Shown in pieces: positions 14,113 to 16,222 of a DNA stretch of 64,000 nucleotides. The notes under the pieces were generated by a model, which searched no databases, was not told the origin of the DNA, and saw only the letters and a program-made list of their open reading frames with translations. The DNA is taken from assembly GCF_014696715.1 (NCBI RefSeq), contig NZ_JACJQO010000005.1, forward strand, positions 806,001 through 870,000, given 5' to 3'. Each line of letters begins with the position of its first letter. Positions within the stretch are counted from its first letter, which is position 1. This DNA is from Pseudanabaena sp. FACHB-2040 (lineage in GTDB: Bacteria; Cyanobacteriota; Cyanobacteriia; Phormidesmidales; Phormidesmidaceae). The position numbers and the translations under genes were made by a program.

Positions 14113-15849
14113 TCACAGCTCACAGAGCGGTGCGCCCATTAAAATCCCTAAACCGCTGGGTGTCCATTCTCCATCATCACAGTCAACATCAATGCCGCAC
14201 ATCCGACGCACCACAAAAAACGGCAGATGGCCAACGGGCGCTGACGTGTTAAAGATAACCTCTGACTCTGCAATGCTCGCGTTTCGGATGCGCCAACCAA
14301 CTTTGGCGGCAAAGCATCTAAACGCATTCTCGTCATAAATGCCGTTTGTGGGGCCGCCACAACCCTCTACATAGAGCTTTCTCTGCACACTAAAGCCAAA
14401 CTTTCCGTTGCTAGCATTGAGCCACAACCGATCGATGCTTTGCAGGACATCACAGGGAAATCTGAGAACGCTCTCAATATCTAAAAAGCCTTGCGCCTCG
14501 CGGTCAGCAATCTTGAGCAGCAGGTTCAAGGTCTCTTGGTCGGCCTGTTTCCACTGTCCTGCTCTCAGAAGGGTTTCTAATCCGGTCAAGTCATCCCGAT
14601 AAGGATTGTTTAAGCTGCTGTCTGACGAGCCAAATCTTTTTAGGGCAGGGCTTGCACCAACAGCAGTAGCCAATCCCAAACTACTGAAACCCAGCCATTT
14701 GAGCATCTGCTGCCGGCTGAGAATAGATTCACCACCAATGCCGCTAGATCTTGGGGGCGGCTCTGGGGCAGTAGCGGGCCGGGTGAATCGCTGAAACAGC
14801 AGACTAAGACGAGAAGCGACTGATTGCGTCAGGGTTGACGGCTCCTCAGCAAATGCTCTAGTTAATGAACGGTCGCCTGAGAGAGAAGCTGGGGCGGTGG
14901 GCCTAGAGATTGCAAATGGGCGTTTGGTCTGAAGCCGTTTAATCTCGGCATGGAGATCTAGCAACTCCTGATCAAGTCCTCTGGCCGCAGCAATGGCTCT
15001 GACGCAAACTTGCTTGGCCAAAAGCAAGTTTCTCTCCACAAAAGCTAGCCGATAGGCATCTTTTTTAAGGGTCGCAATGTCGGTGTCCCAGGCGTGCTGG
15101 GGCATGAGGATAAAGTGATGCTTTTCCGAGGGGTCGGCGCTGATGCGGGGCATTTGCTCAGGCACCTTACCGTACTGGCGGCAAAGCTCAGGAACTCGGT
15201 GTTTTAGATAGTTGCCGAGGCGCTCTACAGTGGCACAGCTTCGCTCTCCCGGCAGATGCAGGGCTTCTAGCAGGGCGTAGGTAAAGGCTCCGTGCCCTAA
15301 ATCCTCGATCTCCCAAGATTTTTGGCTGGGGCTACAGGCGGAAATGGTAATTACGCCCTGCTGCACCTCGCGGCCAATGCCTGAGCCGTCGCGGCTGCCC
15401 TGGCTGCGGCAGGCATCAAGAATCATAATCACGTTGTCAGCGCCGCACCGGCTCAGCCGCTCTCGCACATAGTTAACCTGCAACGCGGCAAAGACTTCGG
15501 TGCCTCTAGAGTTGGCATCGATCGGCATGAGATAGTCGCGATCGCAAACCCGCTCCCCGTGCCCCGCAAAGAAGAACCAGCAGTTATCGCCTGTCGTCAA
15601 AAATGGCTGCTCAAAGCGATCCTGTAAAAATGCCAGCAGATTGCCATACGTTGGCAGCGTAGGTACTGTGTGGCCGCTTGGCAGGGGCAGTGGGGGCGAG
15701 TCGTCTGAGAAATAGCAGACTTCATCAAAACCCAACGCCTCAAACAGGGCTTTGACCTGTTCAGCATCTCGCTTGGCATATTTCAAGGGAGAAAAGTTGA
15801 GGGGGTTGTAGCTGTCAATGCCAATGACTAAGGCCCAGTTTCTTGCCAT
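14113..15849 (-). CDS. Caspase-like protease fused to a GUN4 domain
   Basis: A 578-residue protein starting at ATG 15849 (MARNWALVIGIDSYN); a longer frame would overlap the upstream gene. Residues 1-245 are a caspase/metacaspase p20-like domain with the dyad His97 (FFFAGHGE) and Cys147 (ILDACRSQG). Residues ~375-400 contain a hydrophobic stretch (MLKWLGFSSLGLATAVGASP) that resembles an internal Tat-like anchor. Residues ~420-575 match GUN4: LLRAGQWKQADQETLNLLL, FPCDVLQSIDRLWLNASNGK, FGFSVQRKLY and SAPVGHLPF. GUN4 domains bind (Mg-)protoporphyrin IX. Encoded 16 nt after the Pepco-like gene on the same strand, implying an operon. I infer a tetrapyrrole- or redox-sensing protease; its substrate is unknown. 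Confidence 0.9.
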   Translation of the reverse strand: MARNWALVIGIDSYNPLNFSPLKYAKRDAEQVKALFEALGFDEVCYFSDDSPPLPLPSGHTVPTLPTYGNLLAFLQDRFEQPFLTTGDNCWFFFAGHGERVCDRDYLMPIDANSRGTEVFAALQVNYVRERLSRCGADNVIMILDACRSQGSRDGSGIGREVQQGVITISACSPSQKSWEIEDLGHGAFTYALLEALHLPGERSCATVERLGNYLKHRVPELCRQYGKVPEQMPRISADPSEKHHFILMPQHAWDTDIATLKKDAYRLAFVERNLLLAKQVCVRAIAAARGLDQELLDLHAEIKRLQTKRPFAISRPTAPASLSGDRSLTRAFAEEPSTLTQSVASRLSLLFQRFTRPATAPEPPPRSSGIGGESILSRQQMLKWLGFSSLGLATAVGASPALKRFGSSDSSLNNPYRDDLTGLETLLRAGQWKQADQETLNLLLKIADREAQGFLDIESVLRFPCDVLQSIDRLWLNASNGKFGFSVQRKLYVEGCGGPTNGIYDENAFRCFAAKVGWRIRNASIAESEVIFNTSAPVGHLPFFVVRRMCGIDVDCDDGEWTPSGLGILMGAPLCEL

Positions 15850-15865
15850 CTTGCTACACCGTGCC

Positions 15866-16222
15866 CTAGTTTGAGCTTGCTTTCTTGAAGTGCAGCGTAA
15901 TGCCACCACTACCACCCGCTTTCGCCCCTGATCCTAACAGGCTCAACTGCCCCTCTCCATTGACTTCAACTGAGAGAGTAACTTCGTCTAGCTCCAGGCT
16001 GCCCAGCTCTTCAGCCCTCGCCTGCGCCTGTTTTAAGACGCGGCCCATAGCCTGCATAAAGTCAGCCATACTCTCCTCCAGTCGGGCTGCACTCACCGGC
16101 ACCGATGAACGGGGGGCTGCTACCGGCGGCATGTTCGGAGTGTAAGGATTGGGTAGATTGCCTCCACTGCGCCCGCTCTCAGGGATGTCATCGGTCACAA
16201 CCCAAATGTAGTCTTCTGCCAT
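15866..16222 (-). CDS. Pepco/trypco-like peptidase-associated small protein
   Basis: A 118-residue protein. The N-terminal half is Pro/Ser-rich (NLPNPYTPNMPPVAAPRSS). The C-terminal half has a helix (RLEESMADFMQAMGRVLKQA, residues ~47-66) followed by a beta-rich section 'LDEVTLSVEVNGEGQLSLLG' and a Gly-rich GSGAKAGGSGGITLHFKK. This helix-plus-beta pattern with an ExxxxLxVEVxxEGxxxLLGSGAKA core resembles the small domains (Pepco, trypco) that bacteria encode beside caspase-like or trypsin-like proteases in predicted conflict systems. Its position 16 nt upstream of the caspase-GUN4 gene fits that role. The family call rests on remembered sequence style and should be searched. Confidence 0.7.
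   Translation of the reverse strand: MAEDYIWVVTDDIPESGRSGGNLPNPYTPNMPPVAAPRSSVPVSAARLEESMADFMQAMGRVLKQAQARAEELGSLELDEVTLSVEVNGEGQLSLLGSGAKAGGSGGITLHFKKASSN

Follow-up and report, generated by a model that had tools for sequence, protein, structure and literature searches.

A Pepco-caspase gene pair with a GUN4-fold domain and a family-level hypervariable loop in Pseudanabaena sp. FACHB-2040: a candidate conflict module

What does a GUN4 domain do at the end of a caspase? The question is raised by two adjoining genes of the cyanobacterium Pseudanabaena sp. FACHB-2040, a Pepco gene (P0002) and a caspase-GUN4 fusion gene (P0001), which lie in a 64,000-nt window (the whole stretch of DNA analyzed here, positions 806,001 to 870,000 of contig NZ_JACJQO010000005.1, assembly GCF_014696715.1). 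The initial annotation of this window had proposed that the fused GUN4 domain senses porphyrins. We lean towards reading the pair as a Pepco-caspase conflict or death module, whose input would be a GUN4 fold with a hypervariable loop that likely recognizes something other than tetrapyrroles. The features concerned are as follows.

15866..16222, minus strand: P0002, Pepco gene, 118 aa, the small 5' partner (Pfam Pepco PF24393, E 1.5e-30)
14113..15849, minus strand: P0001, caspase-GUN4 gene, 578 aa (ATG at 15849, stop at 14113-14115)
15130..15843, minus strand: Peptidase_C14 caspase domain, P0001 residues 3-240 (Pfam E 2.5e-24)
15559-15561, minus strand: His97 codon of P0001, caspase dyad
15409-15411, minus strand: Cys147 codon of P0001, caspase dyad
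14641..14697, minus strand: weak hydrophobic linker stretch, P0001 residues 385-403 (Kyte-Doolittle)
14215..14595, minus strand: GUN4 domain, P0001 residues 419-545 (Pfam E 3.1e-30)
14116..14220, minus strand: C-terminal tail of P0001 after GHLP, residues 544-578, the family's variable loop

Most of the domain assignments made in the initial annotation were borne out. Both dyad residues are present in the Peptidase_C14 domain, the C-terminal domain is GUN4, and the small helix-plus-beta gene 16 nt upstream of P0001 is Pepco (106.4 bits against a curated Pfam cut-off of 27). Its description as a partner of Pepco/trypco style held for Pepco and not for Trypco1, whose match stays under that family's cut-off, and no EACC1 match up to E 1 was obtained for P0002 in the profile scan. 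The internal hydrophobic anchor likewise stood in part: the stretch at residues 385-403 exists, and because it is weak (best 19-residue Kyte-Doolittle mean of 1.19), a membrane anchor is not established. The AlphaFold2 model of the GUN4 part of P0001 has a mean pLDDT of 78.0, and its 14 best PDB matches are all solved GUN4 structures, 13 of them at E ≤ 0.001. The scaffold is predicted with confidence; pLDDT is below 50 within tail residues 549-566 (145-154 and 156-162 in the numbering of the model) and at the first four residues.

The adjacency of the small protein and the caspase, another claim of the initial annotation, proved to be conserved. In a survey of 291 genomes of the phylum, 44 Pepco genes were found in 34 genomes, and all 44 neighborhoods were taken. 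The next gene on the 3' side is a full caspase gene in 34 of the 44 and a caspase fragment in three; in two, Pepco is itself fused to GUN4, and five have neither arrangement; the full-caspase and GUN4 calls at these loci come from profiles built in this analysis. The gap between Pepco and caspase is at most 476 nt, and a few bases in most cases, and the His/Cys dyad is kept in all 36 aligned caspase domains from Pepco neighborhoods. At their C-termini, the 34 Pepco-linked caspases carry GUN4 (10 proteins), FGE-sulfatase (19), or DnaJ_C, nSTAND5, RDD and iHD-CE (one each); the remaining one, at locus L068, fell outside the Pfam scan. The C-terminal position behind Pepco-caspase is thus exchangeable, GUN4 being one domain among several found there. 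At two loci (L076:3998-5894 and L077:3957-5865), the gene after a Pepco-GUN4 fusion encodes an Hpt domain and a GUN4-like tail, and no caspase was found at either. In a census of 21 genomes, Pepco lies upstream of four of seven caspase-GUN4 genes. Among the other three, those at L094 and L124 have a different small overlapping 5' gene, which in one case gives a sub-cut-off EACC1 match, and the third has none.

If GUN4 occupies an exchangeable slot, is its ligand site retained there? The census of 21 genomes gave 143 GUN4 matches, comprising 21 canonical copies and 122 others, nearly all of which were fetched with their neighborhoods (two of 102 planned regions, the weak matches G054:C18 and G033:C9, were left out). 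Together with the Pepco loci, this yielded a motif set of 21 canonical and 131 paralog domains. The bilin ligand motif LxNxLR occurs in 19 of the 21 canonical domains and in none of the 131 paralogs, P0001 included; this count was made by regular expression and does not depend on the alignment of the loop columns, which is uncertain. The tail of P0001 occupies the place of this motif and reads GHLPFFVVRR there. By column, the Asn211 equivalent is kept in 21/21 canonical domains versus 1/131 paralogs (31 gaps), the Arg214 equivalent in 21/21 versus 5/131 (25 gaps), and Arg or Lys at the equivalent of plant Arg211 in 21/21 versus 10/131 (13 gaps), this last position being alignment column 116 by our own reading. 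In plants, Arg211 matters for porphyrin binding (PMC8967248). PMC10156173 describes a cyanobacterial GUN4 paralog clade of which no member keeps the Asn of LxNxLR. The paralogs are fused to kinase, caspase, trypsin, TIR, NACHT and other partners, the classes "kinase", "alone" and "other" being set by a motif and length rule; 49 of the 52 "other" proteins were scanned, and five match Pkinase. On plasmids, GUN4 paralogs match 29 records, 18 of them predicted to be conjugative or mobilizable.

The place left by the motif varies more than any other part of the domain. The paralog scaffold keeps invariant positions (W75 in 126/126, P133 in 123/124), whereas columns 134-146 have an entropy of 3.5-4.05 bits, with the exception of Gly140 (105/107). 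Column entropies of loop and scaffold are 0.65 and 0.97 bits in canonical GUN4, 3.27 and 1.50 in paralogs with the DNA element described below (n = 42), 3.66 and 2.22 in paralogs without it (n = 89), and 2.75 and 1.24 in caspase-fused domains (n = 14). Pairwise comparison gives the same picture: 18 pairs with 70-80% identical scaffolds have a mean loop identity of 8% (maximum 30%), and seven pairs at 80-90% have loops 11-28% identical, the latter not being independent because five of the seven are among L041, L042 and L043. Two pairs exceed 90% in the scaffold, L103/L080 (scaffold 94%, loop 87%) and L041/L042 (98% and 100%). By contrast, where two canonical domains have 60-80% identical scaffolds, 54-100% of the loop is retained. 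Even within one protein, the tandem GUN4 pair of the L043 caspase, the scaffolds are 88% and the loops 16% identical.

In a part of the family, the loop is followed by a conserved DNA element. A 22-mer, TTCTCTCGCRTCNAGACTTGTR, stands after the loop in 42 of the 131 paralogs (≤5 mismatches) and in 7 of the 14 caspase-fused domains, P0001 not being among those that have it, and is read in frames 0, 1 and 2 in 21, 9 and 12 cases. The 21 genomes hold 28 copies at ≤3 mismatches, in 10 genomes, against one for a backward-pattern control, and 27 of the 28 lie at GUN4 loci (coordinates matched by eye). A scan of 84,980 species listed at least 115 matching loci; the 80 that carry a title are all from cyanobacteria, and of 82 copies among the matches listed, 71 fall inside a GUN4 frame or immediately behind one. 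The conserved DNA runs for about 120 nt and has an end motif, TACCTGGCA, in 52 of 116 copies, 43 of which have it 105-109 nt from the start. Within 40 nt, each of the three frames meets a stop in 106 of 116 copies, as opposed to 431 of 2320 shuffles. The first stop place reads TAA in 76 copies, TAG in 31, TGA in 8 and TGG in one, two of its bases sitting inside the search pattern; the others lie outside it, the second reading TAA in 95 and TAG in 18, the third TAA in 97 and TAG in two. Since different stop codons are used at the same place, the stop function seems to be kept and not merely the letters. Five loci (L245, L254, L258, L259 and L354) have element copies and no GUN4 found alongside; these are possibly remnants, and WD40-like, membrane-protein or kinase-like frames were seen nearby by eye.

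Between the conserved coding flank and the element lie inserts that differ in length, frame and sequence. From 160 element occurrences, 128 were usable and 124 remained without duplicates, with a median length of 65 nt (27-348; the length counts one base of the Pro codon, and the three longest belong to loci where the element occurs twice) and length classes modulo 3 of 34, 52 and 38. G+T is at least 0.6 in 104 of the 124 inserts and in none of the 124 scaffolds. An in-frame stop occurs in only four inserts, versus 67 and 78 in the other two frames. Loci that are alike in their flanks can differ here: in L308/L256 and L302/L239 the flanks are 87-96% identical, while the inserts measure 53/106 and 79/119 nt and have likenesses of 0.37 and 0.39, against 0.47 (s.d. 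0.09) for random pairs. Between L201 and L304, 3 of 200 scaffold bases differ and the inserts are 60 and 65 nt long, with a changed frame, whereas L201 and L095/L223 (one place fetched twice) have 97% identical scaffolds and the same insert.

Searches for an RNA in the element gave little. Rfam returned only tRNA and a chance match for 15 element loci (gathering cut-offs) and one 601-base stretch (E ≤ 5), and RNAalifold on 43 elements gave three pairs, none with a compensatory change. For a hairpin, CTGTAAC/GTTACAG, 70.1% of cells are paired, compared with 30-47% after sliding; its percentage is reached by 74 of 500 shuffles and its covariation score by 9 of 500. As these structure tests are inconclusive, the element is treated as a conserved sequence and not as an RNA. 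No exact copy of the 22-mer was found in viral contigs.

A transposase gene recurs beside these loci. Among the 144 loci that were fetched by GUN4 or Pepco, 11 have a Y1_Tnp gene (IS200-like, PF01797; the assignment matched in 3/3 scanned proteins). All 11 lie on the strand opposite to GUN4, and in 10 Y1 ends no more than about 140 nt from the GUN4 stop or overlaps it (283 nt at L143); the element is present at eight. Y1 also occurs at 28 of 115 loci fetched via the element, and the presence of the element at these 28 of the 39 Y1 loci is by construction, because they were fetched by the element itself. The distance from element to Y1 is at most 170 nt in 24 of 32 measured cases. Across the 21 genomes, the co-occurrence of the element and Y1 is no more than suggestive (strict pattern, Fisher p = 0.063, not significant alone): Y1 is missing at E ≤ 1e-20 from five of the 10 genomes that bear the element, and G046, a genome with Y1, carries a variant element only. 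This variant, TTCCCTCCTGTCAAGACATGTA, is common to G046 and a plasmid island of several GUN4 genes (L322, Cylindrospermopsis curvispora plasmid p-r.curvispora1, 8598-23893), as if Y1 and the element change together. In the island, a Y1-kind transposase is convergent to a GUN4 gene, and genes annotated as HicA toxin, AbiEii toxin and serine protease lie near. Other recurrent neighbors, judged by first residues, form a cluster like common signaling genes in 16 of 110 neighborhoods.

Relatives of this Y1 protein were found at E ≤ 1e-40 in at least 39 of 386 genomes, the counts being lower bounds because at most six candidates were scored per genome. Among 30 loci (flanks of 1.5 kb at most, some ended by contig ends), GUN4 lies alongside Y1 in 16 of 17 at ≥64% identity, in one of six at 55-62% and in none of seven at ≤51%. 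Members of the last group (small-genome cyanobacteria, f20) stand 3' of Nif11-leader genes, with Nif11 found in 4/4 scanned upstream proteins (Pfam), and also 3' of proteins that end in a conserved RDVRVHD followed by variable tails, for which no Pfam family was found in 3/3 scanned; the upstream genes of this set were labeled by eye. An RDVRVHD-like end, short variable tails and a convergent Y1 on the 3' side were observed at L346-L348, L351, L355, L358-L364 and L366. We take the Nif11 genes to be prochlorosin-type and Y1 to be an HUH protein. Close to its 3' end, Y1 has the motif ATACCTGGCAC (≤1 mismatch) in 24 of 29 small-genome copies and 18 of 27 GUN4-type copies, the latter set including some Y1 genes not beside GUN4; the reversed control gave none in either. 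TnpA_REP-type transposases are described as low-copy and behaving more like housekeeping genes than insertion sequences (PMC6006769).

How might such a loop arise? We tentatively propose, as a possibility well short of an even chance, that the GUN4 paralogs form a repertoire of variable receptors whose loop is rebuilt by a template-less, TnpA_REP-type (HUH/Y1) single-stranded DNA mechanism, which would also diversify the prochlorosin-type peptides of small-genome cyanobacteria. Such a mechanism would leave random-length, GT-rich inserts between the conserved coding flank and the stop-bearing element; as the element has stops in all three frames, any insert frame would work. These receptors would be coupled to the caspase, kinase, TIR, trypsin and NACHT proteins that carry them. 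For the window itself, it counts as a limit that its genome has neither the 22-mer at ≤3 mismatches nor a Y1 relative at E ≤ 1e-20.

Two other accounts of the loop have to be weighed. The tail could be degenerate, a REP/IS-type element at the 3' end allowing composition-biased junk after GHLP to be tolerated thanks to the stops in all frames. The GT-rich inserts, the low AlphaFold2 confidence in the P0001 tail and the three-frame stops would all fit. However, stops are avoided in the frame that is actually read, Gly140 is kept, and loops vary also in paralogs that lack the element, so that we regard degeneration as unlikely. It is far less probable still that a diversity-generating retroelement, with reverse transcriptase and template repeat, diversified the loop. 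Its attraction is that FGE-sulfatase, the commonest alternative in the C-terminal slot, is related to variable domains of cyanobacterial retroelements of this type (PMC7159879 and PMC7517822), but insert length and frame vary widely, and no separate template copy was seen, because GUN4 loci account for 27 of the 28 copies of the 22-mer (21 genomes, by eye, no reverse-transcriptase search having been made).

What the loop does is a separate matter, on which the idea of the initial annotation, a caspase switched by porphyrin or bilin bound to the fused GUN4, competes with ours. The GUN4 fold is kept, which speaks for it, and in a 116-genome sample all 53 genomes with an above-cut-off GUN4 also have a canonical-level copy, which fits a tetrapyrrole link. 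According to PMC10156173 (section 7), an engineered Chlamydomonas GUN4 without the Asn still bound porphyrin. Nevertheless, LxNxLR is absent from all 131 paralogs, the equivalents of Arg214 and plant Arg211 are rarely kept, and the motif segment has become the hypervariable loop, so porphyrin sensing did not hold up well and appears quite improbable to us. Somewhat more doubtful again is the notion that GUN4 paralogs are homotypic adaptors, similar to EAD, in which one GUN4 recruits other GUN4 proteins. Room is left for such a role by the tandem domains within one protein and by clustered GUN4 genes, including the Pepco-GUN4 fusions followed by Hpt genes with GUN4-like tails (L076, L077) and a caspase-DnaJ_C gene followed by a stand-alone GUN4 gene (L063). 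Yet two or more GUN4 genes occur at only 5 of 110 loci, and a constant interface would not predict a hypervariable loop on an invariant scaffold.

The tetrapyrrole motif is replaced by a hypervariable loop, and therefore the domain most likely recognizes something else, which is the core of the Pepco-caspase conflict module that we favor. In such a module the caspase would act as effector with Pepco as its constant small partner, and an exchangeable input domain would fill the C-terminal slot. The caspase may be held inactive together with Pepco and the GUN4 fold until a ligand, perhaps a protein or a molecule derived from an invader, is recognized via the variable loop. Binding would then change or cluster the protein and release the caspase to cleave targets or itself, with death or defense as the presumed outcome. 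The loop would be the part under change, and in some lineages this change is possibly tied to the Y1 element. Several points weigh against this reading. Three of the seven caspase-GUN4 genes in the 21 surveyed genomes have no Pepco; a GUN4 that lacks only the Asn can still bind porphyrin (PMC10156173), and the constant company of a canonical-level copy in 53/53 genomes counts on the same side. Tails are identical within plasmid strain sets (Tolypothrix x3, Stanieria x2 and L. boryana x2, the last being two of four listed), and these three sets are without the DNA element. Finally, hypervariability is a property of the family, the window's own loop having been seen in one strain, and the ligand, caspase activity and phenotype of the P0002-P0001 pair are predictions.

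Within the window, the genes annotated were P0001 to P0005, and the three nearest other scanned genes encode an XPB-like helicase, an EAL-GAF protein and an Asparaginase_2 protein (Pfam), with no apparent link to the P0002-P0001 unit. The genome has five GUN4 domains, and P0002 is its single Pepco gene. Elsewhere in it there are two adjoining GUN4-paralog genes (L171, G000:C18:62366-63333) and a GUN4-WD40 protein (L174, G000:C15:130640). Against PADLOC models, P0001 matches "caspase" (E 2e-14, residues 3-233) and PD-T4-6 (E 4e-33), the latter with its GUN4 part alone (P0001 414-546, model 304-426). The PD-T4-6 model includes a GUN4-like region and may over-call PD-T4-6 in cyanobacteria. P0001, P0002 and the Y1 protein gave no match in PHROGs.

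Fused GUN4 domains have been suggested in print to report photosynthetic status; the results speak against this and offer in its place a variable recognition domain on cyanobacterial death and signaling enzymes. If the Y1 link is causal, cyanobacteria would have a protein-diversifying system that is distinct from diversity-generating retroelements and acts on immune-like receptors and secreted peptides alike. The HUH/Y1 proposal, if true, would amount to V(D)J-like junctional diversification in bacteria without reverse transcriptase. An earlier description of a hypervariable GUN4 loop or its transposase link was not found in the open full-text literature, parts of which were accessible, with preprints and most subscription papers outside reach.

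Set beside known systems, the locus combines familiar and new traits. Related Y1 genes, as in the TnpA_REP/RAYT type, are convergent to genes with variable 3' ends and have the ATACCTGGCAC motif in common; the difference is that Y1 adjoins GUN4 paralog genes here, and it was not found in the window's genome. TnpA_REP itself is said, in a preprint by Laurenceau et al. (bioRxiv 2020.03.09.984088), to be associated with lanthipeptide genes. The caspase-GUN4 fusion of P0001 is the same as that of published cyanobacterial orthocaspases, and both the fusion and the tetrapyrrole-sensing idea for fused GUN4 are already published. Such fusions have been in print since 2010 (PMC2853523), and 29 of 473 orthocaspases were reported with GUN4, 27 of them counted as true orthocaspases (PMC8283722); the accessible parts of these two accounts mention no Pepco partner, motif loss or hypervariable loop. 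Regulation of enzymes by tetrapyrrole level through fused GUN4 was proposed in PMC7159879, which also lists partners of the kinase, caspase, trypsin, TIR and NACHT kind for predicted conflict systems and defines the Trypco domains and a two-gene EACC1-caspase system (System 4). Compared with canonical GUN4, the Mg-chelatase cofactor, P0001 shares the fold, but its domain is a fused paralog without LxNxLR and with a variable loop. The EACC1-caspase system resembles the present pair in having a constant small 5' gene and a caspase with an exchangeable C-terminal domain. It differs in the small partner, which is Pepco here instead of EACC1, and in the caspase, as P0001 scores 61.6 bits against the NCBIfam caspase_w_EACC1 cut-off of 140.

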